Source: a virus
Length of the DNA stretch: 38,632 nt
Virus record (IMG/VR): IMGVR_UViG_3300009488_000034
Coordinates: 1-38,632 of that record
Direction: 5' to 3' (one strand)
Shown: in pieces, positions 1,933 through 18,244 of the stretch
How the letters are laid out: each line of letters opens with the position of its first letter
Position numbering within the stretch: position 1 is the stretch's first letter
Program-made: the position numbers and the translations under genes
The notes under the pieces: model-generated
What the model saw: the letters and a program-made list of their open reading frames with translations, nothing else
What the model was told of the DNA's origin: nothing
Database searches by the model: none

Positions 1933-2387
1933 TGGGCGAAACGAATCCGAATTACCCGACGATGGAAATTGCCCTCTGCATGGTAAATGCGCCTGACAAT
2001 GCTGATGGCACAGAGCGCATGAAAAAAGGCGATATTATCGCCATTCGCAAGCCAGCAGATTTCATTGGAACCCAAGAAGGCAAAATCTTCCTCTGGCTCC
2101 ATATCGAAGGGCCGGAAGAGAATGAATTTGCTCTCTTTGCTCAACAAGTCTATGAACCAACTGATCCTGAAACTGGCACAAGATTCGACAAGCGAAGATA
2201 TGAAATTCCCCTTGGACGCTTACAGATTCTATATCCAGCTTTGAATCAATCGCGGGCAACAGATCCGAATGATTTTTATCAACCATTCTTGCTCATTGAT
2301 AGCGAAGATTATGAAATAGTTGCTGCAGATCCAGCATACGCAGTTAGCGGCCTCGTCTTTGATAAGGCCATAGGAGACTATCTCTGA
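1932..2387 (+). CDS. Hypothetical protein translationally coupled to the giant fibre gene
   Basis: The ATG at 1932 overlaps the upstream stop, and the TGA at 2385-2387 overlaps the ATG of the 11-kb gene. The 151-residue protein has alternating strands (MEIALCMV, GDIIAIRKP, KIFLWLHIEG, RLQILYP, PFLLIDSEDYEIVA) and an acidic surface. This suggests a small beta barrel. No catalytic motif or membrane segment is visible. The tight coupling suggests production in step with the fibre, as expected for a fibre adaptor or chaperone, but the family is not recognised. Confidence 0.65.
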   Translation: MGETNPNYPTMEIALCMVNAPDNADGTERMKKGDIIAIRKPADFIGTQEGKIFLWLHIEGPEENEFALFAQQVYEPTDPETGTRFDKRRYEIPLGRLQILYPALNQSRATDPNDFYQPFLLIDSEDYEIVAADPAYAVSGLVFDKAIGDYL

Positions 2388-5300
2388 TGGCTACCTCAAG
2401 ACGAGTTGCCACAAATGAGAATATAAGCACCTATGATAGCGGGGGTGGACAGGATTACACCGCCCTTGCTACCTGGGAAGCTGCAACTGATATAGATTTA
2501 GTCACCGCAACTCAATCTGAGGTTTTAGAGTGCTTTGCTGGCGTTCATGGTGATGAAGTCACCGTTGATGGCGCAACTACCGATTCTTCGTATTTTAGAA
2601 TCATCCGGGCCGCCTCTGGCGAAGGTCACGATGGCTACCCCCACCAGGACGGATCAGCCGCCTATTTCATCACCACAGTCGCTCAAGATATGTTCACCAT
2701 GCTTGAGGACAACTGCCAGCTTCAAGACTTGGTGATGAGCCTTAATCAGAATTCAGGCACAGGCTGGTATAACGCAAATCAAAGGGGCGATAACCAGCTA
2801 TTCGTTGGCTGTCTAGTTATCAATCCGGTTAATGCTGGCAGCGGTCAATCTAAGGGTTTCAGAGAGAATCATACTGGCGCATTTACAGGCTTTTTTATCA
2901 ACTGCATCGCCATAGCCTGTGAAGATGCTGCCTTTCAGTTTGATGCAGGAACCAGCTACGTCTATAACTGTGATGCCATCAATTCCGGCGAAGGTTTCAA
3001 TGAGAGTGGCGGTACAGTTATCTGTATCAACTGCCTCGGTGATGGCACTACCGCATCGAGTGACTTTGATGGTAGTTTCGATGCCGCGAGTGACTATAAC
3101 AGTTCCGGCGATGGCACAGCCCCAGGCACAAACAGCAGACAAAATCAGACCTTTACATTCTCTAATGCTGGCAATGATGATTACCGATTAGGCTTTACCG
3201 ATGGTGGGGCAAGGAATTTCGGTACGGATCTCAGCGCAGATGGCAATTTTGCTTTCGACGATGATATTGCCGATGGCGTAATGGGAGCTGGTAAGGCCGG
3301 GATAACTCGACCACAAGAATCAGTATGGGATATAGGCTTTCACGAAAGAACGGCAAGCTCATCAAGCTCTAGCTCTTCATCCTGCTCCAGTTCGTGTTCT
3401 TCTAGCAGTTTTTCGTCCAGTTCCTCCAGTTTTTCAAGCTCAAGTTCCTGTTCTTCTTCGTCGTTTTCGTCCTCTAGCTCATGCAGTTCCAGCTCTTTTT
3501 CTAGCTCCAGTTCGAGCTTTTCATCATCATGTTCGAGTTCGTGTTCTTCTTCGAGTTTCAGCAGCTCTTCAAGCTGTTCGTCGAGCTTTTCCTCCAGCTC
3601 TTCTTGCTCTAGTTCCTTTAGCTCATCGAGTTCTTCTTCACCCTCTTGCGTTCCTCCAGATTGGCGCTGGCCTTATAATTCGGCATTGCAAGTAGGCACG
3701 ATAAATAGTGGTACTTTCTGCGATACCCAATCCTGTGATCTTACTGAGTATGTAATCAATGAGCTTCCAGGGGTGGGTATCCCGGCTTTTGATGTAAGGT
3801 TCACCTTTCAAAACGTCCCGAAAGACACATTGGACGTTTCGATTACAGGCTATTACAACGGCGGGCCAGCGCATCTTGTCAAAATAGCTATCTTCAACTG
3901 GAATACCTTGTTTTGGAATGATATGACAGGCGCGGCAACGGACTTTCCAACACAGGGTACACCTTCTAATTATGTATTTCCGTTAGCAGGTGCAGGAACA
4001 CCGTCTGACTATATTAGTGTTGGGAATCTGGTAGCAATTAAGATCGACCATCGCTCTGCCGGATCAGCCGGACACACATTGCACCTGGATTGCATTGAGT
4101 TGACCGATACAAGCTCTTCTAGCTCTTCAAGCTCGTCGTCCTCATGCTCAAGTAGCTTTTCGAGTTCAAGTTCATCGTTTTCTTCAAGTTGCTCGTCGTC
4201 TTGTTCTTCAAGTTTCTCAAGCAGCTCATCGTCATCTAGCTCTTCTTGCTCGTCCTCTTGTTCGTCAAGTTTTTCAAGTAGTTGTAGCTCGTCTTGTTCA
4301 TCTAGCTGCAGCAGCTCTTTCTCGTCGAGTAGCTGTAGCTCATCCTTTAGCAGTTCATCGAGTTCATCATGCTCATCAAGTTTTTCGAGTTCATCTTCGT
4401 CGCTTTCTTCGTCCTCTTCATCCTCGTCCTTCTCCAGCTCCAGCTTCTCAAGTTCCTCATCCTGTTCTTCCTCGTCCTCCTGTTCATCTTCGTTTTCGAG
4501 CAGTTCTTCTTTCTCCTCTTCATCTTCTTCAAGTTTTAGCTCTTCAAGCTCATCGTTCTCTAGCAGCTCGTCAAGCTCTTATTCTTCGTCCTCATCGAGC
4601 TTTTCATCAAGCTCTAGCAGCTTTTCATCTTCGAGTTCTTGTTCTTCCTCCAGTAGCTCATTTTCAAGCTCGTCAAGCTCCTTTTCGTCCTCAAGCTCGT
4701 CTAGTTTCTCTTCATCCTCTTGTAGTAGCAGCTTTTCTTCTTCCTCGTCGTCTTTTTCTTCATCTTCGAGTTCTTTCTCATCTTCATGCTCTTCGTCCAG
4801 TTTCAGTAGCTCATCGTCCTGTAGTAGCTCTTTTTCCTCGTCGAGTTCGTGTTCCTCGTCCTCATTTAGCTCTTCAAGCTCAAGTTCCTCTTTCTCAAGC
4901 TCATCTTCGTCGTCCTGTTCGAGTTCGTTTTCATCATCTTCTTGCAGTAGCTCTTTTTCGAGTTCTTCGTCCTCTTGTAGCTCGTCATTTTCCTCAAGCT
5001 CGTCGTCCAGTTGCTCATCTAGCTCTAGTAGCTCTTTTTCTTCAAGTTCTTCGTGTTCGAGTAGTAGTTTCTCATCCTCATGCTCATCTAGCTCTTTTTC
5101 GAGTTCAAGTAGCTCTTTTTCTTCATCTTCGTCGTCTTTTTCGTCCTCTTGCTCTTCCTCTTGCTCGTCGTCCTTCTCTTCAAGCTCTAGCTGTAGCTCA
5201 TCCTCTTTTTCGAGTTCCTGTAGCTCTAGCTCGTTTTCATCCTCTTCTTCGTCGTCTTGCTCTAGTTCTTTTTCGTCGTCAAGTTCGAGCTGTTCAAGCT

Positions 5301-8300
5301 CGTCGTTTTCAAGTTCTTCCAGCTCCAGTTGCTCAAGCTCATTCTCTTCTTCATCATCCAGCTCTTGTTCTTCAAGCTGTAGTAGTAGCTCGTCGTGTTC
5401 CTCAAGCTCATCCTCATCTTCATTCTCTTCCAGTAGTAGCTCGTTTTCATCCTCATCAAGCTCATTTTCATCTTCATGTTCTTCATCCTCCTCGAGCTAT
5501 TCAAGTAGCTGTTCAAGCTCAAGTAGCTGTTCTTCATGCGATTCTGCCTTCTCTTCGAGTTCTTCATCTTCAAGCTCCTCATCCTGTTCATCTTCAAGCT
5601 CTGTTTCTTGCGATACGATAATTGAATATGGGCCTAATTTACTCCCAGGTGATTGGTTTGATTTTGGCAGAGTATCAGTAAATGAGGACAGTATAGAACA
5701 AGTACATTTAGATTCAAGAAGATATGCTGGTTTTGAATCACGTAAATTCGTTGCCAAATTCAAACCTGGAGATCAAGGCCCACAAGGAATAGAACAACGG
5801 TTCACCCTTGGGAATCCAGCTAATCCAGTTAGTACAGGGACATACGCTCTTGATTTTTGGGTATTTCCAGTTGATAGGAATAAAATCAGGGTAACTTTTG
5901 ATTACGACGATGACACAGTACAGGTAATTAACTTTACTGGCCTTATTCCTAATATCTGGAATCATGGTCGCAGAATCCTAACAATCAAGAAAAATCTAAC
6001 TGTTAGGCTGGCATGGCACTCTGGAGCGCAAGAATCCGGTACTTGGTACATAGATGAAGCATATCTGCGGGAATTCCTCTGTAGTGGCTCATCCTCATCC
6101 AGTTCGTGCGATTCAGCCTTTTCCTCCTCTAGCTGCTCATCGAGTTGTTCAAGTTGCTCCAGCTCCTTCTCTTCATCAAGCTCGGCTGTGTCTTATTCGA
6201 GTTCGAGTTCTTGTTTCTCATCATCTAGCAGTTGTTCAAGCTCATCTTGCTCTTCTTCGTTCTCGTCCAGTTCATCTTGCTTTTCATCATCTTCGAGCTG
6301 CAGTTCTTCATCTTGTTCCTCTTCATTCTCTTCATGCTCGTCCTGTAGCAGTTCATCGTTCTGTGACTCAGCATTTTCCTCAAGCTCATCGAGTTCTTGT
6401 AGCTCAAGTTCTTGTAGTTCTTCACTCTCTTTTAGCAGTTGTTCGAGTAGTTTCAGCTTCTCATCATCAAGCTCTTCATCCTGTGACTCAGCATTTTCTT
6501 CTTCATCATGTTCTAGCTCTTGCTCTTCATCTTCGAGCCAGAGCTTTCAAGAATTACAAGGCCAGTATTGGTATCCAATTAGTGAGGACGGTGGATATAC
6601 TGTTTCTCCTGTGGGATCTGGCACTAATATCGCAGATCGAGTAAATAACGGCATTATAGGCCCAGGTTTCTCACCAGGGCCAGATGATACGAATGGTTTC
6701 CAGGGTAGGGACGGAGATTTCATTAGATTCAGGCTTTCCGATCCGACTTTCCAGGGAGATTCTTTAGAGGTTCAAGTATTGGTAAGGGCATTTGCTTTCG
6801 CAAATCCACCTGGAACGATTGATGTAACTTTTTATAGCGATAGCGGGACTCCTTACGAAACACAGACGATAAATACTCTCACGACTTTCCCTGCAGACTA
6901 CTTCCTAGTTTGGAAGGTGGCTTTGACAGCCGCAGAGCTTACAGATGCACGATTAAGGTTTGAGTGCCTAGATTCAGTCTGGAATGATCGAGTAACTGAG
7001 GTTGAGCTAACACTCGTTGCAACTTCATCTTCCAGTTCCTCATCTTCCAGCTCTTCATGTGATTCTGCCTTCTCATCCTCATCTTGTTCTTCGTCTGAAT
7101 CTTCCGTATCATCTAGCTCTTCATCTTCGTCCTGTGATTCTGCTTTCTCATCCTGTAGCTCCAGTTCTTGTTCATCGTCGTTCTCATCAGCCTCCAGCTC
7201 AAGCTCATTCTCATCATCGTCCTTTAGCAGTTGTTCCTCATGTAGCAGCTCAAGCTCTTGCGATTCGGCTTTCTCATCCTCTTCTTCAAGCTCTTCGTTC
7301 TCAAGCTCTTCTAGCTCAAGCTCCTGCAGTTCTTCATTTAGCTCATCGTCGAGCTGCAGTTCTTGTGATTCAGCCTTCTCATCTTCATCTTCTTCATCGT
7401 CTTGTTCTTCATGCTCTTCCAGCTTCTCGTCCTGCTCAAGCAGCTTTAGCTCATCGTCCTTTTCATCCGGTAGTATTTCATTCTCTTCATCTTCGAGTTC
7501 ATCTTGCGATTCTGCCTTCTCATCTTCGAGTTCATGTTCATCATCATCATTCAGCTCCTCTTCGTGGAGTTCGTCCTCATTCGTTAGCTTCTCATCCTCA
7601 TGCTCCTCTTGTGATTCGGCATTTAGCTCTTCAAGTTCGAGTTCGTCCTGCAGCTCTTCGTTCTCCAGTAGCTCGTTTTCAAGTATCTCGTTCTCGGATT
7701 CATCATCGTCCTCTTGCAGTTCATCGTTCTCAAGCTCAAGCTCTTCATTTTCATCGAGTTGTTCATCATCAAGTAGCTCTTTCTCGTCGTCGAGTTCCAG
7801 TTTCTCGTCGTCGAGTTCTTCTTTCTCTAGCAGTTCATCTTCTTCGGAATCATCATCTTCAAGCTCATTTTCGTCAAGCTCCAGCTCTTTTAGTTCAAGC
7901 TGTAGCAGTAGCTCTTTCTCATCGTCGTCGTCGCTCTCAAGCTCCTCGTCGAGTTTTTCTAGCAGTTCCTCATGCTCTAGCTCTTTCTCATCCAGTTCCT
8001 CGTTCTCATCCTCAAGCTCTTTCAGTAGCTCATCCTCATCTTTCTCAAGCTCGTCGTCCTTCTCATCCTCATCCTGTTCAAGCAGTTTCTCGTCGTCGAG
8101 TTCGTCCTTCTCATCTTCATCTTCGATCTGCTCCAGTAGCTCTTGCAGCTCTTCGTCGTCGTCTTTCTCGTCGTCGTCGAGTAGCTGTTCATCGAGCTTT
8201 AGCTCTAGCAGTAGCTTTTCATCATCAAGCAGTTCATTTTCAAGCTCTTGCTCTAGCTCTTTCTCATCTTCAAGTAGTAGTTTCAGCAGCTCAAGCTCTT

Positions 8301-11300
8301 CATTCTCCAGCTCAAGCAGTTCATCCTCAAGCTCATCTTCTAGCTCTCTCTCAAGCAGTTCTTCATCTTTCAGTAGCTCTTCAAGCTCTTCTTTCTCAAG
8401 CTCAAGCAGTTCATTCTCAAGCTCATCGAGCCAGAGTTTTGTAGCCCTGCAAAGCCTATTCATCGTACCGGATAGCGATATTACCACCACGGCGGGTACT
8501 TTTGGGAGTGGTACTGCTCATTGGGATCGCATAAATAGTGGAATCCTGGGCGGCACTCCAGATGATACAAATGGAGTCTATGTTATTGACGGTGGTGATT
8601 GGCGTGGCGGGTTTATAAATCCAAGTTTTGTAGGAACCTGTTTAGAGATCAAGGTTCATGTAAGAGCAAAAGAACGAACAGCCGGACCCGCAGATTTTAC
8701 GGTAGAGCTTTATTCAGATGGGGCTACTTTAGATGATGATGATTTCTTTTCACCTACTGGCAGTTATGTGAATTATACGTTGACTCCAAGCACACCTATT
8801 GCAAAGACAGCGGCACAGCTTACAAATCTTGAAGTTAGACTTAAAGGTGAAAGCGCCAGTTGGGAAGCTCAGATTTCAGAAGTTGAAGTTGAAATTGTCC
8901 TGACTTCATCTTCGAGTTCATCTTTCTCAAGCTGTAGCTCTTCATTCAGTAGTTCTTCATTCTCAAGCTCCAGCTCTTCGTTCAGCAGCTCATCCTCTTC
9001 CTCTTCTTCCTTCTCTAGCAGTTCTTCCAGCTCCTCATTCTCAAGCTCGTCGTCGTTGAGTTCTTCATCTTCATCTACAGGCCCAAGCTCATTCTTGAAC
9101 CTAGATCCAAATCAAGACGTTGATGGTTCATGGACACAATTCGGTGGTGGGCCGAACAACTACGATAATATCAACGATTGGGATGAGGGAACACCGGATA
9201 GATCACTACCGTACATCTATTCCACAGTTGGTTTGACTGAAAAGACAGGATTTGACGATCCGACTTATCCAGGCGTTTGCACCAACATTGATGTAAAAAC
9301 CGATATGGTTACAAACGTCGATAATTCACAGATAGGCGTTTCGCTCTATGATGGCGCTGTGCAAATCGGTAGCGAAAAGTTATTTGATCTGCCTAATGGT
9401 ACGAGAGTTTTTCCGACATTTACTTGGATAGTGCAAAAAACGGCTGCAGAGCTTAGTGATCTCCAGGTTTGGTTCCGCAATGCTGGCGCTGTCCTGATCG
9501 GTCTAAGTTCTACTCAGGTAACTCTAAAATATAATTCGGTTTCATCTTCGAGTTCTTGCTCTAGCTCCTTTAGCTCATGCTCAAGCTCATTCAGCTCTTC
9601 ATGCTCATCGTCAGTTTCAAGTTCCTCTAGCTCATTTTCTTCATCTTCATTTTCCTCATCTTCTTTCTCAAGCTGTTCATCCTCTCTCTCAAGCTCAAGC
9701 CATTCATCATCCTCATCGAGTTCTTCTACCGAAGTTGGACAAGAGTTCAAATGGGGCGACGAGCTAACTCGTCTGGATCGCTCTACTGTTAATTGGGTTC
9801 GCGCAATGGGCGGTGATTTTATAAGCATCCCGCCAGGAAACAGAGCCCTACTGAAAGCCGTTTCTATCTTTGTCGAAAATAATAATAGTAACCCTGTGCG
9901 AATGGCTGTCTATCAAGGTGGTAGTGCCAGTTCGCCAGCAGGGGCTACTCTAATATGGGATGCTGGCAAAACGGATGCTGTAAGCACCGGAACATTTAGA
10001 TGGATAACTCTTGACCATCCTGGCCCTGATTATCCAATCCTTCAACCTGACACATTTACTTGGATTGTCGTTAAAGGCACAGGTGGTTTCAGGGTAGAAC
10101 GCCAGAGTGACCACGATCCTAGTTCGATGAATTGGCAAGCTGCCAATGCGTATTGGATTACAACTGATTTTACCAATGATGAAGATACCGCTTATCCATC
10201 TTCATGGCCCGATCCTGATGTTTCAGGCAGCTATGGTAGTGTTTATTATGTATGGAATCTCACATACGAAATTGAAGAGTTCTCATCCTCATCAAGCTCT
10301 TCTTCATGCTCAAGTTGCGACTCAGCTTTCTCATCCAGTTCATCTTCAAGCTGCTCTTCATCTTCATCCTGTGATTCGGCATTTAGCTCTAGTTCATCAA
10401 GCTCTTCCTTCTCATCGAGTTCGGATTCTTCCAGTTCAACCTGTTCATCTAGCTCGTCGAGCAAGAGTTCCACATATCAGAGTGTGTGGATCGTACCGGA
10501 TGGCGATATACAAACTATGCTTACATTTGGCTCTGGATCTGCTAATTGGGATCGAATCAATAGCGGCCTGGACACTCCAGACGACACTAACGGAATCAAA
10601 GGTCTTGACCTTGATACTTGGCGCGGTACATTTACAAGTCCGTCTTTCGCGGGTGTTACACACGCAATTTACGTTTGGATAAGAGGGAGAAATCCAGGTA
10701 GTCCCAATAATTGGTCAGTAGATGTTGATCTTTATTTAGATGGCGGTGTTGAGTCTGATAGTTATGGAGTAGGCCCATTACAAGCCACATTCGGAAATCA
10801 TGTAAGCTCGACTACTGATACTGTGCAAAGGACAGCGGCACAGTTACAGAACCTAGAAGTCAGAATTATCTCTGGAAGTCCTAGTACAGATGATGAAATC
10901 TCAGAAGTAGCAGTTGAGCTTGTTCTCGGTTCATCCTCAAGCTCCAGCTCTTCACAATCATTTAGCTCAAGTTCTTCATCTTGTGATTCGGCATTTTCAT
11001 CATGCTCAAGCAGTAGCTCATTTTCATCTTCGAGTTTTAGTTCAGAGTCTATATCATCATCTTCAAGCTCATTCTCATCCTCTTCAAGCTCACAATCATC
11101 AAGCTCATCTTGTGACGCTTTTGGATGGGTACAGCATTTTAAGAATGACAGTACAGGTTGGGGTTGTCTTGCCAACTGTTCCTCTTCGCCGCCTTGGACT
11201 GTAGCAGGGCCAGGAATGAGCCTACAGCCGCAAGGAACCTGGGCTGATGGTTATCGACCTACTCACGTTAGAATGACAGGTACTCACAATATATCTGGTG

Positions 11301-13429
11301 ATACCTGGACGATCCGGCTGCAACAAGAAATACCCGCTCTCAATACTATCGCTACAGTTGAAATACCAGCTTCTCCAGGCGGGAGGAGTCCACCTGTTGC
11401 TATTGATTGGTCAAATGACTTCGATATGAGCCGGATCTCAGACATTGATGCTCCAACTGGACAAATCACTAACATCGAATTCTTGGAGTGTGGTGGATCA
11501 TTCAGCTCAAGCTCAAGCTCAAACTCCAGTAGCTCTAGCTCATTCTCATCTAGCTCCTCTTGCAGTTCTTCATTCTCAAGTTCTTCAAGTAATTCCATTG
11601 CACAAGGTACATTCGTTGTGCCGGATAGTGATATAGCTTCTAGTGGAGTTACTGCATTTGGATCAGGCACAGGCTATTGGGATCGCACGAATGATGGGAT
11701 TAGCACACCTGATGATACCAATGGGTATCAGGTCACAACGACTTTTGGTGGTGCGCGAGTTGGCCTTACTAATCCTTCATTCCAGGGCGAATCTACTGCA
11801 ATAAAGGTTCATACACGCGGTAAAAACCTTTTTGAAGCTGATAGTCTTTTCCAAGTAACCTTCTGGTCAGATGGTTCAGGGAGTTCAGATGGTACAGATT
11901 CAGGGCTAAGTTTCAGCGTTGATGATACTTGGGAAGTTATTACTTCAACATTCATCGTAAAGAAATCGGCTGCACAACTTACCAATATGCACGTTTCAGT
12001 CGGCGGGCAAATTCCTGGCTCAGAGGGGGATAGATTTTCAGAGATTGAAATTGAGGTTGTGCATCCTTCATCCTCTTCCAGCTCCTCATGCTCAAGTTCT
12101 TCGTTCTCATCTTCTAGCAGCTCGTTCTCAAGCTCAAGTTCTTCGTTCTCAAGCAGCAGCTCGTTCTCAAGCTCAAGCTCAAGCAGCTCATTTTCCAGCT
12201 CATCATCCTCTTGCTCAAGCTCGTCCAGCCAGAGCTTTGAAGCCTTGCAAAGTCGATTCTCGGTTCCCAATGGCGATCCTAGTGCAACGATGGCAACTTA
12301 TGGCTCCGGTAGTGGACGTTGGGGCCGTACAAATGACGGTATCTTCGGCGGTACGCCTGACGATACGAATGGAATCTATGGTCTTGATGGCGACCATTAC
12401 CTTGCGAATATGACCACCCCGAATTATGGAGGATCGTCCTTAGAGATCAAAACTCATGTTCGAGCGCAAAACTTTAGTGCAGGAAACAATACTGAATTTC
12501 TTGTAAAACTTTTAACAAATGGCGGTGATGTTGATGGTGAAGATCAATTCACTACAGGCGATGCTTGGCAGAATTTCACATTCACATTACCGCTTGTAAA
12601 AACGGATACAGACCTACAGTTCATGCGTGTCAGGGTAGAGCCTCTGGATGCTAGTTTTGATACGCGGATTTCAGAGATAGAAGTCGAAGTTGTTTTGACT
12701 TCATCATCCTCTTCAAGCTGTAGCTCCAGTTCTTCCTCATTTAGCTCCTGTTCAAGCAGTTCGAGTTCCTGCGATTCAGCATTTTCATCTTCTTCGAGTT
12801 CATCATCTTTTAGCTCAAGCAGTTCAAGCTCCTGTGATTCAGCTTTCTCATCTTCATCTAGCTCTTGTTCATCTTGCTCCAGCTCAAGTTCATCAGAGAG
12901 CTTTCAATTTTTTCAGAGCATTTGGATCTATCCTCAAGTACCCGATGATTTGAATGGTGGATTTACTTTCGGTGCTGGTAGTAACCCTGGCAATATCAAT
13001 AATGGCATCGTTGGCCCTGGAGCATCACCGGATGATACGAATGGAATAGGCGGGAATGGGCCGGACGATTTTTACGACTGTGAGCTAACTAATAATCCCA
13101 TTTTTGTAGGTCAATGTCTATTCATCAGATCCCGTTGGAGATTAAAGGCTGATGCTGGCACAGGCGATGTGGACGTAAACCTGAGAATTGGTGGATCACC
13201 AATAACGAGTGAAACCAGCATATTCCCGACTACAAGTTGGGTGACTTATACTGCAACGCATGACGTACAGTTTAATTATACTCAATGTCAGGCACTAGAG
13301 GGATTCATTGGCTTTAACGATGTGGCTAACGCTGATCGCCTATCTGAGTTAGAAGTTGAAATTGTTTTAGGTGGTTCATCAAGCTCTTCGTCCTCTTGCT
13401 CCAGCTCAAGCTCATCAACATCGACTTAG
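2387..13429 (+). CDS. Giant multidomain serine-rich virion protein, probable fibre/adhesin (3,680 aa)
   Basis: The frame is uninterrupted for 3,680 codons. Residues 1-322 look like a right-handed beta-helix domain ending in a WDIGFHE motif typical of such phage proteins. Eleven further folded domains follow, at about residues 419-575, 1074-1235, 1385-1546, 2016-2173, 2231-2385, 2448-2632, 2695-2848, 2909-3038, 3068-3227, 3281-3439 and 3503-3663. Seven of these are related copies of one module. The domains are joined by serine-rich linkers totalling about 1,620 residues; the two largest are near 500 and 470 residues. The linkers are roughly four-fifths Ser with single Phe or Cys every few residues and almost no charge. 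A long surface fibre or adhesin is the best guess. The adjacent glycosyltransferases suggest O-glycosylation of the Ser linkers. No signal peptide or sortase motif is visible, so it is not a cell-wall protein. Confidence 0.85.
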   Translation: MATSRRVATNENISTYDSGGGQDYTALATWEAATDIDLVTATQSEVLECFAGVHGDEVTVDGATTDSSYFRIIRAASGEGHDGYPHQDGSAAYFITTVAQDMFTMLEDNCQLQDLVMSLNQNSGTGWYNANQRGDNQLFVGCLVINPVNAGSGQSKGFRENHTGAFTGFFINCIAIACEDAAFQFDAGTSYVYNCDAINSGEGFNESGGTVICINCLGDGTTASSDFDGSFDAASDYNSSGDGTAPGTNSRQNQTFTFSNAGNDDYRLGFTDGGARNFGTDLSADGNFAFDDDIADGVMGAGKAGITRPQESVWDIGFHERTASSSSSSSSSCSSSCSSSSFSSSSSSFSSSSSCSSSSFSSSSSCSSSSFSSSSSSFSSSCSSSCSSSSFSSSSSCSSSFSSSSSCSSSFSSSSSSSPSCVPPDWRWPYNSALQVGTINSGTFCDTQSCDLTEYVINELPGVGIPAFDVRFTFQNVPKDTLDVSITGYYNGGPAHLVKIAIFNWNTLFWNDMTGAATDFPTQGTPSNYVFPLAGAGTPSDYISVGNLVAIKIDHRSAGSAGHTLHLDCIELTDTSSSSSSSSSSSCSSSFSSSSSSFSSSCSSSCSSSFSSSSSSSSSSCSSSCSSSFSSSCSSSCSSSCSSSFSSSSCSSSFSSSSSSSCSSSFSSSSSSLSSSSSSSSFSSSSFSSSSSCSSSSSCSSSFSSSSSFSSSSSSSFSSSSSSFSSSSSSSYSSSSSSFSSSSSSFSSSSSCSSSSSSFSSSSSSFSSSSSSSFSSSSCSSSFSSSSSSFSSSSSSFSSSCSSSSFSSSSSCSSSFSSSSSCSSSSFSSSSSSSSFSSSSSSSCSSSFSSSSCSSSFSSSSSSCSSSFSSSSSSSCSSSSSSSFSSSSSCSSSSFSSSCSSSSFSSSSSSFSSSSSSFSSSCSSSCSSSFSSSSSCSSSSFSSSCSSSSFSSSSSSSCSSSFSSSSSSCSSSSFSSSSSSSCSSSFSSSSSSSCSSSCSSSSSCSSSSSSSSFSSSSSSFSSSSSSFSSSCSSSSSSYSSSCSSSSSCSSCDSAFSSSSSSSSSSSCSSSSSVSCDTIIEYGPNLLPGDWFDFGRVSVNEDSIEQVHLDSRRYAGFESRKFVAKFKPGDQGPQGIEQRFTLGNPANPVSTGTYALDFWVFPVDRNKIRVTFDYDDDTVQVINFTGLIPNIWNHGRRILTIKKNLTVRLAWHSGAQESGTWYIDEAYLREFLCSGSSSSSSCDSAFSSSSCSSSCSSCSSSFSSSSSAVSYSSSSSCFSSSSSCSSSSCSSSFSSSSSCFSSSSSCSSSSCSSSFSSCSSCSSSSFCDSAFSSSSSSSCSSSSCSSSLSFSSCSSSFSFSSSSSSSCDSAFSSSSCSSSCSSSSSQSFQELQGQYWYPISEDGGYTVSPVGSGTNIADRVNNGIIGPGFSPGPDDTNGFQGRDGDFIRFRLSDPTFQGDSLEVQVLVRAFAFANPPGTIDVTFYSDSGTPYETQTINTLTTFPADYFLVWKVALTAAELTDARLRFECLDSVWNDRVTEVELTLVATSSSSSSSSSSSCDSAFSSSSCSSSESSVSSSSSSSSCDSAFSSCSSSSCSSSFSSASSSSSFSSSSFSSCSSCSSSSSCDSAFSSSSSSSSFSSSSSSSSCSSSFSSSSSCSSCDSAFSSSSSSSSCSSCSSSFSSCSSSFSSSSFSSGSISFSSSSSSSCDSAFSSSSSCSSSSFSSSSWSSSSFVSFSSSCSSCDSAFSSSSSSSSCSSSFSSSSFSSISFSDSSSSSCSSSFSSSSSSFSSSCSSSSSSFSSSSSSFSSSSSSFSSSSSSSESSSSSSFSSSSSSFSSSCSSSSFSSSSSLSSSSSSFSSSSSCSSSFSSSSSFSSSSSFSSSSSSFSSSSSFSSSSCSSSFSSSSSSFSSSSSICSSSSCSSSSSSFSSSSSSCSSSFSSSSSFSSSSSSFSSSCSSSFSSSSSSFSSSSSSFSSSSSSSSSSSSSSLSSSSSSFSSSSSSSFSSSSSSFSSSSSQSFVALQSLFIVPDSDITTTAGTFGSGTAHWDRINSGILGGTPDDTNGVYVIDGGDWRGGFINPSFVGTCLEIKVHVRAKERTAGPADFTVELYSDGATLDDDDFFSPTGSYVNYTLTPSTPIAKTAAQLTNLEVRLKGESASWEAQISEVEVEIVLTSSSSSSFSSCSSSFSSSSFSSSSSSFSSSSSSSSSFSSSSSSSSFSSSSSLSSSSSSTGPSSFLNLDPNQDVDGSWTQFGGGPNNYDNINDWDEGTPDRSLPYIYSTVGLTEKTGFDDPTYPGVCTNIDVKTDMVTNVDNSQIGVSLYDGAVQIGSEKLFDLPNGTRVFPTFTWIVQKTAAELSDLQVWFRNAGAVLIGLSSTQVTLKYNSVSSSSSCSSSFSSCSSSFSSSCSSSVSSSSSSFSSSSFSSSSFSSCSSSLSSSSHSSSSSSSSTEVGQEFKWGDELTRLDRSTVNWVRAMGGDFISIPPGNRALLKAVSIFVENNNSNPVRMAVYQGGSASSPAGATLIWDAGKTDAVSTGTFRWITLDHPGPDYPILQPDTFTWIVVKGTGGFRVERQSDHDPSSMNWQAANAYWITTDFTNDEDTAYPSSWPDPDVSGSYGSVYYVWNLTYEIEEFSSSSSSSSCSSCDSAFSSSSSSSCSSSSSCDSAFSSSSSSSSFSSSSDSSSSTCSSSSSSKSSTYQSVWIVPDGDIQTMLTFGSGSANWDRINSGLDTPDDTNGIKGLDLDTWRGTFTSPSFAGVTHAIYVWIRGRNPGSPNNWSVDVDLYLDGGVESDSYGVGPLQATFGNHVSSTTDTVQRTAAQLQNLEVRIISGSPSTDDEISEVAVELVLGSSSSSSSSQSFSSSSSSCDSAFSSCSSSSSFSSSSFSSESISSSSSSFSSSSSSQSSSSSCDAFGWVQHFKNDSTGWGCLANCSSSPPWTVAGPGMSLQPQGTWADGYRPTHVRMTGTHNISGDTWTIRLQQEIPALNTIATVEIPASPGGRSPPVAIDWSNDFDMSRISDIDAPTGQITNIEFLECGGSFSSSSSSNSSSSSSFSSSSSCSSSFSSSSSNSIAQGTFVVPDSDIASSGVTAFGSGTGYWDRTNDGISTPDDTNGYQVTTTFGGARVGLTNPSFQGESTAIKVHTRGKNLFEADSLFQVTFWSDGSGSSDGTDSGLSFSVDDTWEVITSTFIVKKSAAQLTNMHVSVGGQIPGSEGDRFSEIEIEVVHPSSSSSSSCSSSSFSSSSSSFSSSSSSFSSSSSFSSSSSSSSFSSSSSSCSSSSSQSFEALQSRFSVPNGDPSATMATYGSGSGRWGRTNDGIFGGTPDDTNGIYGLDGDHYLANMTTPNYGGSSLEIKTHVRAQNFSAGNNTEFLVKLLTNGGDVDGEDQFTTGDAWQNFTFTLPLVKTDTDLQFMRVRVEPLDASFDTRISEIEVEVVLTSSSSSSCSSSSSSFSSCSSSSSSCDSAFSSSSSSSSFSSSSSSSCDSAFSSSSSSCSSCSSSSSSESFQFFQSIWIYPQVPDDLNGGFTFGAGSNPGNINNGIVGPGASPDDTNGIGGNGPDDFYDCELTNNPIFVGQCLFIRSRWRLKADAGTGDVDVNLRIGGSPITSETSIFPTTSWVTYTATHDVQFNYTQCQALEGFIGFNDVANADRLSELEVEIVLGGSSSSSSSCSSSSSSTST
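4112..5607 (+). repeat. Serine-rich linker 2 (about 499 codons)
   Basis: This is the longest uninterrupted low-complexity stretch of the giant gene. Runs of three to ten Ser are broken by single Phe or Cys, rarely Tyr or Leu. All six serine codons are mixed, so the DNA is a degenerate repeat rather than a trinucleotide microsatellite. Near its 3' end it carries the first Cys-Asp-Ser-Ala-Phe motif (5537). Confidence 0.9.
6539..7024 (+). repeat. PDDTNG module, copy 1
   Basis: This is the first of seven related domains of about 160 residues in the giant protein. It starts with QSFQELQ, has GSGTN..DRVNNGI, PDDTNG and NPTF-like motifs (here DPTFQG), then a TAAELTDARLRF strand, and ends with VTEVELTLV directly before the next Ser linker. 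A beta sandwich of lectin-like type is likely, but no ligand site can be read. Confidence 0.8.
7025..8430 (+). repeat. Serine-rich linker 4 (about 469 codons)
   Basis: This is the second very long Ser linker, lying between two copies of the PDDTNG module. Its first half is rich in Cys-Asp-Ser-Ala-Phe motifs (for example at 7058) and its second half in plain Ser/Phe/Cys units. Rare Glu, Trp, Gly or Ile residues appear. Long out-of-frame reading frames on both strands here arise from the composition and are not genes. Confidence 0.9.
8431..8905 (+). repeat. PDDTNG module, copy 2
   Basis: This copy has the full pattern: QSFVALQS, VPDSDI, FGSGTAHWDRINSGI, TPDDTNG, NPSFVG, LEIKVHVRA, AAQLTNLEVRL, and a closing ISEVEVEIVLT. 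It is close to copy 6 (12229-12702) at the protein level. The DNA at the module entry is also similar, which suggests fairly recent duplication. Confidence 0.85.
9077..9540 (+). repeat. PDDTNG module, divergent copy 3
   Basis: This is a distant relative. The middle reads DWDEGTPDRS instead of PDDTNG, but a DPTYPG step, the strand KTAAELSDLQVWF and the overall length match the other copies. It ends at a Ser linker as they do. Confidence 0.55.
10470..10930 (+). repeat. PDDTNG module, copy 4
   Basis: It shows TYQSVWIVPDGDI, FGSGSANWDRINSGL, TPDDTNGI, SPSFAG, RTAAQLQNLEVRI and a closing ISEVAVELVLG before the next Ser linker. Confidence 0.8.
11590..12067 (+). repeat. PDDTNG module, copy 5
   Basis: It shows FVVPDSDI, FGSGTGYWDRTNDGI, TPDDTNGY, NPSFQG, SAAQLTNMHVSV and a closing FSEIEIEVVHP before a Ser linker. 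Confidence 0.8.
12229..12702 (+). repeat. PDDTNG module, copy 6
   Basis: It shows QSFEALQSRFSVP, YGSGSGRWGRTNDGI, TPDDTNGIYGLDGD, LEIKTHVRAQ, LQFMRVRV and a closing ISEIEVEVVLT. It is the copy closest to the one at 8431. Confidence 0.85.
12893..13375 (+). repeat. PDDTNG module, copy 7 (C-terminal domain)
   Basis: This is the last folded domain of the giant protein: ESFQFFQSIWIYP, FGAGSNPGNINNGI, SPDDTNGI, NPIFVG and a closing LSELEVEIVLG. Only a short Ser tail (about 17 residues ending STST) follows. It carries two Cys absent from the other copies. Confidence 0.75.
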
Positions 13430-13438
13430 GGGTTGCGA

Positions 13439-13981
13439 ATGTACGATCTCGATTACTACGAGAACATGCTGAGAATGTATAGCAAAACGGCAGAGGAGAT
13501 TTGCAGGATAAGATGGGAGTTTATAACTGATTTTCTAGGCATAGGAGGTAAAGGGAAAAGCCATACCATTTTGGATTATGGTTCAGGTGTAGGTTGGTTC
13601 CGGGCTTGGCGGCCTCGGGGAAAAAATGTGAAGGTGTACTCTTTTGATATTGCATCTTACCCGCAAACCGGGTTAGACTTGCAAATCTTCGATTGCACCT
13701 GTTTTTGGGACGTGCTGGAGCATCTACCTGATTTCAAGGTAATTGAGCCTATTCTGGCACTTAGCAAACACGTTGCTATTAGTCTCCCGATTGCCCCTGA
13801 TGATCTTAGTAACCTTAAAGATTGGAAGCATTGGAAGCCTGGGGAACACCTACATTACTTTACAAGTGATTCTTTGGGAGCGCTTTTCGCTGAATACGGC
13901 TTCTACCCCCTGGTAGAGAAAAATGTTGAGTGTCCACCCAGGACCGACATTAAATCCTTTATCTTTCGGAGGGAACCGTGA
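13439..13981 (+). CDS. SAM-dependent methyltransferase, class I
   Basis: I chose the ATG at 13439, six bases after AGGGG (13428-13432); a TTG at 13433 is less likely. The 180-residue protein has the SAM-binding motif I ILDYGSGVGWF (residues 44-54), an acidic strand end (YSFD, near residue 70), the WDVLEHL motif (90-96) typical of Methyltransf_23-type enzymes, and the HLHYFTSDSLGALFAEYGF segment common at their C-terminal side. The substrate cannot be read; in sugar clusters such enzymes often methylate glycans. It begins nine bases after the giant gene stops and opens the glycosyltransferase island, so a role in decorating the fibre or its glycans is plausible. Confidence 0.8.
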   Translation: MYDLDYYENMLRMYSKTAEEICRIRWEFITDFLGIGGKGKSHTILDYGSGVGWFRAWRPRGKNVKVYSFDIASYPQTGLDLQIFDCTCFWDVLEHLPDFKVIEPILALSKHVAISLPIAPDDLSNLKDWKHWKPGEHLHYFTSDSLGALFAEYGFYPLVEKNVECPPRTDIKSFIFRREP

Positions 13982-14217
13982 GCCTAGATTTCATCGAAAT
14001 GCGAAAAAAGATTCAAGAGGCCCTTGGTGCTGGTAGATTCTTCATCACGATCAGCTATGTTGAGGAAGTGACCAGGGAAGGTTTGTCAGAAGATGAGATC
14101 CAGCATTATTACCTAACGCATAATTTTCCAAGGGATGATCTGATGCAGAGCTTGGAACACCTATCTAAACAGATTCTCCCTGAGTCGCTAGAGGTCGATG
14201 AGGAAAGTAATCCTTAG
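13978..14217 (+). CDS. Small hypothetical protein (79 aa) in glycosylation island
   Basis: The GTG at 13978 overlaps the TGA of the methyltransferase gene, with CGGAGGGA just upstream. The 79-residue product is acidic and helical, with no Cys pairs or membrane segment. Its last 20 bases overlap the next glycosyltransferase. I do not recognise it. It could be a small subunit or chaperone of the neighbouring enzymes, but only the coupling supports this. Confidence 0.55.
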   Translation: MSLDFIEMRKKIQEALGAGRFFITISYVEEVTREGLSEDEIQHYYLTHNFPRDDLMQSLEHLSKQILPESLEVDEESNP

Positions 14218-15124
14218 AAACGGCCAAAGTCCTGGCGATGTATTGACAATGACCAGGGCGGTTGCCGATCTAGCTCATACATATCCTGATTATCTGATTG
14301 ATGTAAGAAGTCCCTGTGCCGAGGTGTGGGAGAATAATCCTTGGCTACACCCGCTCAATGAAGATGATGAAGATGTGGAACAGTTTGACATTGGCTACGA
14401 TGCAATTCATCAAAGCGGTATCACAGGGATTCATTTCAGCGATGGTTTCAGGCTCGATATTGAGAAGAAACTTGACGTTGAGATTCAATCGTCAGGGCTC
14501 TTGCCCGAGCTGTGGCTGAGTGATGAAGAAAAGAATTGGATAAATCAGGTGGAAGTTGAGTTCGGCTGGAGGGATAAATTCTGGCTCCTTAATGCCGGGA
14601 GTAAGCCGGACAATGCCTTGAAGCAATATCACCGCTGGCAGGAAGTGATTGATATTCTCACGCGGTACTTTGGCGAGAAAATAAAGATCGTGCAGATAGG
14701 CCATGAGGCCCACCATCATCCTGATCTTACTGGAGTCCTCTCCCTGGTGGGTAAAACCGATTTAAGGCAGCTCATAAGGCTGTGCCATTGGTCGGAAGGG
14801 ACTATAGGACCAATTAGCTTTCAATTCGTCATGGCTGCGGCACTTCAAAAGCCTCATGTTTGTGTGGCTGCAGGGAAAGAGGGTGTACGCTGGCATTTAT
14901 ACCCCCACGGCAGATACTTATATACTAATGGCGCTCTCGGCTGTTGTGAATGGGATGGTTGCTGGCGGGGCGGTGGTCATACAAAGTGCCTAACCATGGA
15001 GAACGGACACCCGAAATGTTTTGGGATGATTAAGCCCTATATGATAACTGACGCGGTTAAGATGTACTATGAGGGTGGGAAGTTAAACTTTGATTACCGA
15101 GTACCACGAGAAGAAACTGGTTGA
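14198..15124 (+). CDS. Glycosyltransferase family 9-like (heptosyltransferase-type)
   Basis: The ATG at 14198 lies inside the end of the previous gene. The 308-residue protein has the GT9 pattern: an N-terminal SPGDVLTMTRAV segment with the conserved Gly-Asp (D14), a second Rossmann half with KIVQIG-like strand, and the sugar-nucleotide side motif LTGVLSLVGKTDLRQLI...GTIGPISFQFVMAAALQKPHV. This matches the 'asp..g..H.AaAl.kP' region of ADP-heptose transferases, although the usual Asp/His there are changed (IGPISFQF). A C-terminal CCEWDGCW...C...C cluster follows. Members transfer sugars from nucleotide donors, classically to LPS core. Here, next to a serine-rich protein, the acceptor may be protein or a growing glycan. 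Confidence 0.75.
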   Translation: MRKVILRNGQSPGDVLTMTRAVADLAHTYPDYLIDVRSPCAEVWENNPWLHPLNEDDEDVEQFDIGYDAIHQSGITGIHFSDGFRLDIEKKLDVEIQSSGLLPELWLSDEEKNWINQVEVEFGWRDKFWLLNAGSKPDNALKQYHRWQEVIDILTRYFGEKIKIVQIGHEAHHHPDLTGVLSLVGKTDLRQLIRLCHWSEGTIGPISFQFVMAAALQKPHVCVAAGKEGVRWHLYPHGRYLYTNGALGCCEWDGCWRGGGHTKCLTMENGHPKCFGMIKPYMITDAVKMYYEGGKLNFDYRVPREETG

Positions 15125-15857
15125 GTACCTGGAGCCGGGGCTGTCAGTCCTGATTAGATTCGGCCATGGGTGGGGCGATACGCTCATGTTCATGCCGATC
15201 TTCTGGCGGCTGCAGGATCTTTATGCGGAAGTTAAATTTGACCTCTATCTGGAATGTGGTCAAGAATGTGTATTTGATTCGTTTCCAGACAAAGAGGGGC
15301 CGGATCACGATTACGTTTTTCATCTTGATTTTCCAATGTCGGAGGGGTCTGGACTCACTAAAGCGCAGAAATGCTGCATAGACGAGCTTGGAATTGAACC
15401 TTTATCTGAAATTGCGCCTTTACCAAAAGTAGAATCACCAATCGTATCTGTGCATTTTCAAGGGACAGCGCTACCCAATTCGGTTAACTGTCCAGAGGAG
15501 ACAGCTCGGCAAATATGGCAGGAGATTTTAGATGCGGGCAAAATACCTATTGAGGCCCATTTTAGGCATACTTTTCACAATCCTGTTAACACTCGGTATG
15601 GCTTCGTTGATCGTCATGTACGGTATTGTCATGCTAATCTCGATAACCTCATTGGGCTTATACAAAGTTCTTTTGCCTTTGTCGGAATTGCTTCGGGGCC
15701 TTTTGTTACGGCTCTTTCAATCATGCCTGGACGAACATTCTACCTTGAGAGGAATCACGCGGCTACGGATTATGTGAAGCACCTGGATATTCGATCAGCT
15801 CATGTGGACAGTTACGAAGATGGGACGGTGAAAGAATGGCTAACTTCGCTATCGTAA
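15090..15857 (+). CDS. Second glycosyltransferase family 9-like protein
   Basis: The only start that keeps the N-terminal strand is TTG 15090, overlapping the previous gene by 35 bases; GGGTGGGA lies upstream. The 255-residue protein has the GT9 N-terminal motif SVLIRFGHGWGDTLMFMPIFWRL (core GWGDT, D30) and the C-terminal sequence LIGLIQSSFAFVGIASGPF, which is the donor-side region of the fold. It is shorter than typical heptosyltransferases (about 320-350 residues), with a reduced middle. A sugar-transfer role in the same pathway as the upstream GT9 is likely. Activity is less certain because of the reduction. Confidence 0.65.
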   Translation: MITEYHEKKLVEYLEPGLSVLIRFGHGWGDTLMFMPIFWRLQDLYAEVKFDLYLECGQECVFDSFPDKEGPDHDYVFHLDFPMSEGSGLTKAQKCCIDELGIEPLSEIAPLPKVESPIVSVHFQGTALPNSVNCPEETARQIWQEILDAGKIPIEAHFRHTFHNPVNTRYGFVDRHVRYCHANLDNLIGLIQSSFAFVGIASGPFVTALSIMPGRTFYLERNHAATDYVKHLDIRSAHVDSYEDGTVKEWLTSLS

Positions 15858-16753
15858 TTACCGATACAGGCATGATCCCTGGCACGAATGGGATGCTCAA
15901 TGCTCTCGAATACTACGGCAATGATATAGATTTCTACTACCTACACATGGGTAAATGGGTAGAGCCCTATCTGGAGGGCTGGCAAAAAGCATTTCCGTTT
16001 TTTCATCCGATAAAGATTCTCGATCTCCAGGCTGACGGATACCCAAAGCATCCGAAAGTTGGCGAAAATGTGTGGTACTGCAAGATGTACCGCTACTTAT
16101 ACGCAGTTAGAGAGCTGCAAAAATATGATGCTGTTTCGGTATTCGATGCAGATATGCAGATCACGAATAACATTGAAATTTGGTTCGAGATAGCTGCTGA
16201 AACAGGCAGATTCTTACTCCCGAACAACGACTTTAGCGGTCAGGAATACGATCAGCATAATATCGAAGGGATCAGGGGAGCATCATCACCGCCCCTCCAC
16301 AATATGCCGAATTTTTTTGATCCTAAGAAATATGGCTGGATGCTGGAGCAAATACCGGAAGAGAGCTTGGCTGAAAACCTTGGCGATATGAGTTCATTGA
16401 GCCGGATTCTTATAAAGACAGGTGAAATTGACAAGATAATGCCATTGCCGAATCTGTTTTGGGTTCAATCAAATTATTACTATGTGAACCTCATTAAGCG
16501 GGTTATCAACGGCAAATGGTATCTGTGTCTGAACAAAATGGGTGACAGGGTAAATGCTTTTCATAGGCGCTGGTGGTTTGAATCTGTTTGCAGACAATTT
16601 CTCCAGGGGCCAAAAGAGGACATAGCTATAGAATTTGCAAGAAACAACGTGCGCTTATTTTGGGACTTCACTCGGCATTTCAACCTGAGCCTAAAGCATA
16701 AAATTGAGTGGAATGAAGATAAGTGGGGCGGCTATCCTGCGGAGTTTGCATAA
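15836..16753 (+). CDS. GT-A fold glycosyltransferase, GT8-like
   Basis: The ATG at 15836 overlaps the previous gene by 22 bases. The 305-residue protein has the metal/nucleotide-sugar DxD motif as VFDADMQI (D104-A-D106), preceded by the helix KMYRYLYAVRELQKYDAV as in glycogenin/galactosyltransferase-type GT8 enzymes. It also has a later NAFHRRWW motif (H243) where GT8 enzymes have a second metal-binding His. The N-terminal IVITDTGMIPGTNGMLNAL fits the start of the Rossmann-like GT-A domain. It should use a UDP-type sugar donor with a divalent metal; the sugar and acceptor are unknown. Confidence 0.75.
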   Translation: MANFAIVITDTGMIPGTNGMLNALEYYGNDIDFYYLHMGKWVEPYLEGWQKAFPFFHPIKILDLQADGYPKHPKVGENVWYCKMYRYLYAVRELQKYDAVSVFDADMQITNNIEIWFEIAAETGRFLLPNNDFSGQEYDQHNIEGIRGASSPPLHNMPNFFDPKKYGWMLEQIPEESLAENLGDMSSLSRILIKTGEIDKIMPLPNLFWVQSNYYYVNLIKRVINGKWYLCLNKMGDRVNAFHRRWWFESVCRQFLQGPKEDIAIEFARNNVRLFWDFTRHFNLSLKHKIEWNEDKWGGYPAEFA

Positions 16754-17346
16754 TGATCTGTGATTGTTGCAAGCGCGACTTTGGGGATATGCGTCCTGAT
16801 GAACCACAATTTCCAATCCTTGAGTACACAGTCTGCCATTGGTGCTTGTGGATGCTCAAGGGCTACATTGAATCAATTTTGCAGGAAACTAACCTGAAAA
16901 TCATGTGGGGCAACCGCTCTCTATACAGACCGCATTGGGTCGAGTTGAAAAGGTTTCTGAAAGAGCATGAACCTAAGAGTGTAATCGAATACGGATCAGG
17001 ACTTTCTACGGAATTATTGGCCCTTGAAGGTTTTGATCTATGGTCGTTTGAACCGTCTGAGCATTACGCTCAAATGTGTCGTCGAGTACACAGTAGGATT
17101 ACAGCTTACGATCCAAAGGTGGGGCCTCCATTGGTGGATAGAAGATTTGACTTCGCCCTGGTGGACGCTACGCAGACACATCGCTTCAATGAAATGGCTC
17201 ACGCGGTACAGCACACAGACCGCTACATTTATATGCACGATCCAGAGCCAGTACAGGTAGAGATACTAGAGCGCCACGGCTGGCTACCGATGGAGCAATG
17301 GAGTATTTGGAAGGAATGGCACAGATTCTATGAAGCACCAAGCTAA
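16753..17346 (+). CDS. Zinc-knuckle plus SAM-methyltransferase-like protein
   Basis: The start is ATG 16753, overlapping the previous TAA (TAATG) with GGAG upstream; a GTG at 16723 is an unneeded extension. The first 35 residues carry two Cys pairs (C3/C6 and C28/C31), a likely zinc knuckle. The rest is a Rossmann domain with motif I VIEYGSGLST (77-86), an acidic residue closing strand 2 (WSFE, E100) and FALVDATQ (near 141), typical of class I methyltransferases. The 197-residue protein lies between two GT8-like genes. The substrate may be a sugar, a peptide or the fibre. Confidence 0.7.
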   Translation: MICDCCKRDFGDMRPDEPQFPILEYTVCHWCLWMLKGYIESILQETNLKIMWGNRSLYRPHWVELKRFLKEHEPKSVIEYGSGLSTELLALEGFDLWSFEPSEHYAQMCRRVHSRITAYDPKVGPPLVDRRFDFALVDATQTHRFNEMAHAVQHTDRYIYMHDPEPVQVEILERHGWLPMEQWSIWKEWHRFYEAPS

Positions 17347-18244
17347 TTACGCCTTCATCGTGGCGGCCAGCTCAAATTATATCCCTGGCCTTGTGGCAAT
17401 GTTCAATAGTCTAAAACGGCTTGGCAATGAACATGACGTTATCCTGATTTCATTTCGTTTGCCGGAAGAATATCTTGAATCGCTCAAGGCGTATTCATTT
17501 ACGGTAAGGGTTATTGAAACAGAAGGTGAAAATCAGACTCACCAAACAGCCATCGAGCGATTTCGCGTGGCCTGTGAGATCGGCCATGAGTATGATGCGA
17601 TCTGTCTGCTCGATGCCGATATGTTTCTGGAAGCAAATGTAGATGTTTTCTTTATGGCTGGCAGTAAAGGACTGATAGTTACTGGCAGCAATGGCATGAT
17701 TATCAATTTCAACAAAAAGTATCAGGAACAATATGATTGCTATCTGGATGAAGATGAATGGCCCTATCCTCAAATCCATACTACTGTGCCTATTTTTCTT
17801 GATGCTCGTAACCTTGATTGGTTTGATGCTCTTTATAAGTCCAGGCGGGTAGATTCCTGGGATGATTTTCTTTACTTGAATATCCTGGGGATTAAGCTGG
17901 AGAAGTACAAGAAGATGATTTGTATGCCGCCCTATGCGTTCACAGGAATTCACCATTGGCAGATGAAACCTGAAACTGCGGCCATGGAGAAGGGGGAGCT
18001 GCTGCTGTCCGGCACAGAAGAACAAATCTACATGGTTCACGGTAAGTGGTGGGATCAAGGCTGGTTACAGGATTTAGTTCCAACCATGGAAAGATACTGG
18101 CACGATGAGGAAATAAGTTTCAGAGGCCAGGGAAGAACACATAATGCAATTAACAGTTTATTGGGGCGTTTTCGCAACTTAATCCAAGAAGGAGATATGT
18201 CATGGCTAACGTTGTTACCCGAGGGGGCGGTTTCCTTACCTTAA
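17330..18244 (+). CDS. GT-A fold glycosyltransferase, GT8-like (second)
   Basis: The ATG at 17330 overlaps the methyltransferase gene by 17 bases. The 304-residue protein begins with NYAFIVAASSNYIPGLVAMFNSL, a classic GT8 N terminus. It has the DxD motif LLDADMFL (D95-A-D97), an acceptor-side region around FLDARNLDWFD, and HGKWW (H237-W241) as the second metal-binding site. It looks intact and of usual GT8 length. It is the last enzyme of the island. Its 3' end overlaps the next small structural gene by 43 bases, which ties the island to the packaging genes in one transcript. Confidence 0.8.
   Translation: MKHQANYAFIVAASSNYIPGLVAMFNSLKRLGNEHDVILISFRLPEEYLESLKAYSFTVRVIETEGENQTHQTAIERFRVACEIGHEYDAICLLDADMFLEANVDVFFMAGSKGLIVTGSNGMIINFNKKYQEQYDCYLDEDEWPYPQIHTTVPIFLDARNLDWFDALYKSRRVDSWDDFLYLNILGIKLEKYKKMICMPPYAFTGIHHWQMKPETAAMEKGELLLSGTEEQIYMVHGKWWDQGWLQDLVPTMERYWHDEEISFRGQGRTHNAINSLLGRFRNLIQEGDMSWLTLLPEGAVSLP

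Follow-up and report, generated by a model that had tools for sequence, protein, structure and literature searches.

The virus record IMGVR_UViG_3300009488_000034, analysed over its full 38.6 kb (38,632 nt) and referred to here as the window, contains a tailed-phage structural operon with terminase, portal, major head protein, head-closure-like and tail genes. Within it, a gene for a giant protein with long serine (Ser) tracts is followed directly by an island of putative glycosyltransferase (GT) and methyltransferase genes. Our results indicate that the two probably belong to a modular system by which phages O-glycosylate virion proteins at poly-Ser tags, with the neighbouring enzymes as its builders. 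At the sequence level, this proposal is supported by the tracts themselves, the enzyme families, the occurrence of both together in phages that are not related, and the purifying selection that acts on three of the enzymes, GT9a, GT9b, and GT8b.

A first-pass annotation of the window had described an 11-kb gene with about 1,600 residues of nearly pure Ser linkers, a description that holds: the encoded protein of 3,680 amino acids (aa) contains 12 Ser tracts that sum to 1,613 residues, 1,293 of which are Ser (80%), 140 Phe (9%), 115 Cys (7%), 17 Asp, and 17 Ala, with threonine (Thr) nearly absent. All six Ser codons are mixed in the tracts (TCA 343, TCT 265, AGC 220, TCG 174, TCC 148, and AGT 143; 28% AGY), which argues that the tracts are selected or kept as protein and rules out an origin from microsatellites or slippage. 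In the window gene and its relatives, the residues follow a spacing grammar dominated by C-SSS-F and F-SSSSSS-F, with runs of at least 10 Ser far rarer than in shuffled tracts. Transfer RNA genes, which could have pointed to a phage supply of Ser tRNA, were found neither in the window nor in the related genomes G002 and G003. Between the tracts, one globular domain of about 160 aa occurs in six copies with 36-46% identity to the first copy. The N-terminal domain has no match among 50,697 annotated phages, and one other globular domain, GT8b, and GT9a have no homologue in annotated phages either.

The island consists of MT1, a 79-aa open reading frame (ORF), GT9a, GT9b, GT8a, MT2, and GT8b, in that order and all overlapping. 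The ATG start of MT1 at position 13439 lies nine bases past the stop of the giant gene (the longest MT1 ORF opens at TTG 13433), and the earlier count of seven overlapping genes within nine bases of the giant gene is correct if the conserved 79-aa ORF is included. A scan of the island for promoters and terminators gave no excess over shuffles. The annotation had further named two GT9-like enzymes, two GT8-like enzymes, and two methyltransferases; MT1 is clear and GT9a, GT8b, and GT8a are supported, while the methyltransferase match of MT2 is weak (Pfam, 0.027) and the GT9b match is confined to the N-terminus.

None of the GT9-like and GT8-like genes of the window scores above the Pfam cut-off. 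By profile comparison, GT9a is related to the family 9 heptosyltransferases, with hhalign values of 95% and E 3e-8 for the clade alone and of 98% and E 3e-12 over 219 columns when distant homologues are included; its best PDB profile match is 1psw (heptosyltransferase II, E 0.004), and the RfaQ model is matched by all 8 of its homologues examined. Cysteines 249, 250, 255, 264, and 274, in the C-terminal part of GT9a, are invariant across these 8 homologues, and their spacing differs from that of the four-Cys finger of the Ser-modifying enzyme TibC. The AlphaFold model of GT9a is poor (predicted local distance difference test score, pLDDT, 31). The predicted, partly confident model of GT8b combines a GT-A fold with a DxD motif, in keeping with family 8, and its Foldseek matches are GT8 enzymes, among them glycogenin, LgtC, and GlyE; 3tzt is matched with E 6.9e-6. 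Profile searches agree weakly with GT8 (E 0.007 and 0.025), and the CLLDADM motif, including its acidic DAD, is invariant across homologues of 23-78% identity. GT8a and GT8b are paralogues of each other. Single-sequence PDB searches with GT8a and GT9a yielded nothing useful, and neither did the narrow profiles A2-A5. The ratio of nonsynonymous to synonymous substitution rates (dN/dS) is 0.03-0.14 for GT9a, GT9b, and GT8b, pointing to purifying selection, as functional enzymes would be expected to show; several further genes had reached saturation in dS in this test.

Among relatives whose capsid protein is at least 82% identical, the giant gene and the island occur together wherever the flank is present, namely in G002 and G003 (complete), G011 (partial), G020, and G021 (partial), and in G001, G004, and G013 the island lies at a contig edge. 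The counterparts of the giant protein in G002, G003, and G020 measure 3,504-3,699 aa. A Ser-rich gene lacking the enzymes, which the first-pass annotation had named as evidence against the pairing, was found in no clade member with a visible flank. Relatives with 60-67% capsid identity and a visible flank (G005-G010) carry ordinary fibre genes and neither part at that place. Within the clade, GT9a, GT9b, and GT8b are kept at 70-90%. The MT2 slot is occupied by a UDP-N-acetylglucosamine (UDP-GlcNAc) 2-epimerase (PF02350, E 2e-74 in G003) in G001, G002, G003, G020, G021, and L056, as well as in L316, and in several relatives the GT8a slot is taken by a divergent paralogue. The major head protein of the window (26282-27229) shares 28% identity with a protein of a Methanosarcina virus and 26-28% with the head proteins of Myxococcus phages Mx8 and Mx9.

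Beyond this clade, a GT8b profile scan found the island in phages for which a search showed no similarity to the window backbone (L323 has another head-protein family, L327 has a tail with a tape measure, and L324 lies in a 140-kb contig), and most of these loci have Ser tracts adjoining the island. A scan with the GT9a profile, a query that carries no Ser information, yielded 29 distinct viruses outside the clade, duplicates having been removed by eye, and 2 more from bacterial-genome records. An ORF with a poly-Ser tract (15 or more Ser within 25 residues) lies within the fetched locus, about 10 kb on each side of GT9a, in 21 of these 31 viruses; in two others (L343, L370), the gene caller had overlooked tracts close to the end of the contig. 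By called ORFs and at a slightly stricter threshold (16 in 25), tracts were present in 2 of 120 control loci from a poly-Thr scan (1.06 Mb) and in 0 of 9 distant-relative records (Fisher p 4e-16 for 21/31 versus 2/120). Called ORFs were used because a six-frame control count was too permissive (18/120, including frames antisense to other genes).

Further cases came from tract composition alone. The unrelated 548-kb contig G023 (L311 2971-17867) has poly-Ser/Leu tracts beside two GT9 genes, a gene for an FkbM methyltransferase, and one for a protein of 1,126 aa to which models of GT9, methyltransferase, and GT4 all match. In L301 (59-6539), the gene for a poly-Ser protein has as neighbours a member of a GlcNAc-transferase family (PF11397, E 2e-67), GT4, GT2, and a weak methyltransferase match. 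The giant protein ends in SSSSSSTST (13400-13429), and the same ending closes the Ser-tract proteins of L351 and L356, which belong to otherwise unrelated phages and whose GT9a, GT9b, and MT1 share no more than 47-59% identity with those of the window. The enzymes do stand beside unrelated fibres, a finding that the annotation had likewise listed as counting against its proposal, but most of these fibre, tail, and capsid proteins carry Ser tracts too. Comparative genomics strongly supports its central claim, that a Ser-rich virion-region protein goes together with glycosyl- and methyltransferases dedicated to it, with the amendments that the unit is the tract rather than the fibre and that the system extends beyond this operon.

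The position of the tracts suggests what they are for. The proteins of L342 and L344 that match models of phage cement proteins carry the tract as a C-terminal tail, and in L327 it follows a tail-protein domain that ends at residue 336 of 365. A spacer needs both of its sides occupied, so tails with nothing beyond look like acceptors, and since unrelated phages have the enzymes beside Ser tails of tail proteins and of capsid-cement-like proteins, the poly-Ser tract, not a fibre, is the unit of pairing. The opposite view would be that the tracts are flexible spacers only and that the enzymes have another target, such as a host surface polysaccharide, where they could block superinfection or alter receptors. 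GT9 enzymes normally act on lipopolysaccharide, phage serotype conversion is well known, and polyserine linkers in the enzymes with which marine bacteria degrade carbohydrates provide a parallel. We consider this view unlikely, since many tracts are terminal on cement-like and tail proteins, tracts and enzymes co-occur across unrelated phages, and some tracts reach 496 aa, far beyond the need of a spacer.

Two other explanations are much less probable. As phages are able to glucosylate DNA, the enzymes might modify phage DNA or another virion protein, with the Ser-rich protein a chance neighbour; judging by the description in PMC11256854 and by what is generally held for mycobacteriophages, GT genes that glycosylate capsids need not adjoin their target, but the element that recurs beside the present enzymes is the tract and not any single protein family. 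Equally improbable is that the tracts carry another chemistry, such as S-glycosylation of Cys, thioether rings, or disulfide cross-links, with sugars on Ser playing no main part: the 115 Cys do stand at favoured spacings, for example CSSSF, but tracts of related systems (L337, L338, L358, L359) keep Ser with little or no Cys, and the window island gave no match to an enzyme of the lanthionine type.

In the mechanism that we infer, from the acceptor role of the tract and heptose as first sugar to the order of the steps and any benefit, poly-Ser tracts in virion proteins, which in the window means one giant multidomain structural-region protein, would accept sugar from the neighbouring enzymes while still inside the infected cell, either ahead of assembly or in its course. 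GT9a would be the most likely priming enzyme, transferring to Ser a first sugar that, by analogy with the TibC/AAH family, is probably heptose. GT9b and the GT8-like enzymes would extend the chain, and MT1 and MT2 would methylate it. This order of priming, extension, and methyl capping, already proposed in the first-pass annotation, is an inference, to which the comparison adds that the enzymes resemble GT9 heptosyltransferases accompanied by a variable set of partners. A heptosyltransferase would need ADP-heptose, and the homologues of its biosynthetic enzymes encoded by several deeper islands (HldE kinase 3e-55, HldE adenylyltransferase 1e-39, HldD epimerase 4e-60) fit such a sugar supply. 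Exchanged genes for the epimerase, a sulfotransferase, extra methyltransferases, and GT2 could vary the glycan between phages. The product may be a bristle of stiffened glycosylated Ser segments on the particle, with shielding, particle stability, or adhesion as a possible benefit.

Several observations weigh against this proposal. No tract lies near GT9a in 8 of the 31 viruses even when a wider region is considered, and the 31 share GT9a by descent and are not fully independent, while the control loci are shorter and were picked for poly-Thr. GT9a reaches no curated cut-off, and the TibC/AAH model TIGR04414 is matched weakly by 1 of its 8 homologues (E 0.011) and not by GT9a of the window. 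The GT8 assignment by Foldseek leans on a model that is confident in about the first 100 residues only, and E. coli WaaJ and WaaO gave no match to the GT8-like profiles. The window island contains no ADP-heptose genes and would thus depend on the host for this sugar.

Beyond the system itself, we lean slightly towards a broader interpretation, in which poly-Ser tags would be a general, portable acceptor that diverse phages add to proteins of the tail, the fibres, and the capsid decoration. An island that is shared and recombines, in some cases with its own ADP-heptose supply, would build on them a variable methylated or sulfated heptose-based glycan, amounting to a glycocalyx system that phages exchange even when unrelated. 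A parallel version may exist in phages such as G022 and G029, where poly-Thr tracts adjoin other glycosyltransferases. In the 113-kb phage G022 (L060-L061; L061 6396-11615), globular domain families of the window protein are joined by poly-Thr linkers, and the gene adjoins GT4, GT9, methyltransferase, and GT2 genes. In G029 (L313 6178-10036), a GT6-family gene (PF03414), whose flanking genes have no Pfam match, lies one gene downstream of the poly-Thr gene. Upstream of the poly-Thr gene of G026 (L315 1-9455) are genes for a collagen-like protein, repeated oxygenase-looking genes, and GT genes, and in G037 (L312 8423-13008) a GT2 gene and one for a sulfotransferase-looking protein without a Pfam match lie just upstream. 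A general link of poly-Thr phages to GT2 and GT9 genes was a weak trend only (7 of 14 long records versus 5 of 25 controls) and is not used as proof.

If the proposal is true, glycosylation of phage particles could be read from sequence as a poly-Ser tag beside a GT9/GT8/methyltransferase island, and the presence of lipopolysaccharide-type sugar genes inside the structural operons of some phages would be explained. The module predicts acceptor, first sugar, and enzymes, which makes each step accessible to in vitro assays on short peptides from the tracts; it also bears on particle stability and on the interaction of phage particles with the host surface. The component enzyme families, phage virion glycosylation, and Ser-rich adhesin loci are already known, and no description of a module of poly-Ser tag and enzyme island was found in the open-licence literature searched. 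The features of the giant gene and the island are listed in Table 1. At the other end of the window, a very large protein begins at positions 35640-38630 and is truncated where the window stops; its matches resemble DNA methyltransferases and are weak. In relatives, the large genes at this position encode 2,030-3,134 aa.

Table 1 Features of the giant Ser-tract gene and the enzyme island in the window.
Feature	Positions	Strand	Remarks
Giant Ser-tract protein	2387-13429	+	N-terminal domain, about 10 further globular domains with Ser tracts between, C-terminal Ser tail
N-terminal globular domain	2387-3355	+	323 aa
Ser tract 1	3356-3637	+	94 aa
Ser tract 2	4112-5599	+	496 aa
Ser tract 3	6089-6535	+	149 aa
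Ser tract 4	7025-8428	+	468 aa
Ser tract 5	8906-9091	+	62 aa
Ser tract 6	9542-9727	+	62 aa
Ser tract 7	10283-10471	+	63 aa
Ser tract 8	10931-11107	+	59 aa
Ser tract 9	11504-11587	+	28 aa
Ser tract 10	12068-12226	+	53 aa
Ser tract 11	12701-12895	+	65 aa
Ser tract 12	13376-13417	+	C-terminal tail, no domain beyond
Repeated globular domain, example copy	8429-8905	+	about 160 aa
Repeated globular domain, other copies	6536-7024, 10472-10930, 11588-12067, 12227-12700, 12896-13375	+	about 160 aa
MT1	13439-13981	+	S-adenosylmethionine-dependent (SAM) methyltransferase, PF13489, E 8e-15
79-aa ORF	13978-14217	+	kept across the clade
GT9a	14198-15124	+	heptosyltransferase-like by profile comparison; five invariant Cys
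GT9b	15090-15857	+	GT9-like, weaker evidence; hhalign 79%, N-terminal part only
GT8a	15836-16753	+	GT8-like paralogue of GT8b; DxD motif (FDADM)
MT2	16723-17346	+	methyltransferase-like, weak match
GT8b	17330-18244	+	GT8-like; CLLDADM motif
Small conserved ORF	18202-18516	+	ends the overlapping run, upstream of the terminase genes

Among known systems, the loci of serine-rich-repeat adhesins, such as pneumococcal PsrP with GlyE, share with the window a very long Ser-rich protein beside several dedicated glycosyltransferases, and GlyE, which glycosylates a pneumococcal Ser-rich adhesin, is among the nearest solved structures to GT8b. The repeats of these adhesins alternate Ser with other residues and their loci encode accessory secretion proteins, whereas in the window nearly pure Ser with Phe and Cys is encoded in a structural operon of a phage, together with methyltransferases and enzymes of the GT9 type. 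Neither SecA2/SecY2 nor the GtfA/GtfB priming pair was found among the window ORFs, as judged from translations and from family scans of the island. A second likeness is to TibC, which modifies Ser but not Thr and in which four Cys bind an essential iron (PMC4358343). GT9a resembles TibC in its heptosyltransferase-like sequence without belonging to its family, its five invariant Cys recall the Cys finger of TibC but are spaced differently, and the Thr-poor tracts recall the Ser-only sites of the TibC/AAH enzymes; in contrast, the acceptors of these enzymes are autotransporter adhesins and not poly-Ser tracts, and GT9a stays below the cut-off of the TibC model. Phage-encoded glycosyltransferases and glycans on a virion protein have been described for mycobacteriophages Che8 and Rita (PMC11256854, citing Freeman et al. 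2023), where, as far as that description goes, the target is the major capsid protein and no module of poly-Ser tag and enzymes is reported. Finally, nearly pure Ser segments join domains in proteins of marine carbohydrate-degrading bacteria and have been treated as spacers between enzyme modules (PMC2386152); these linkers lie between modules, whereas many of the phage tracts are terminal tails.

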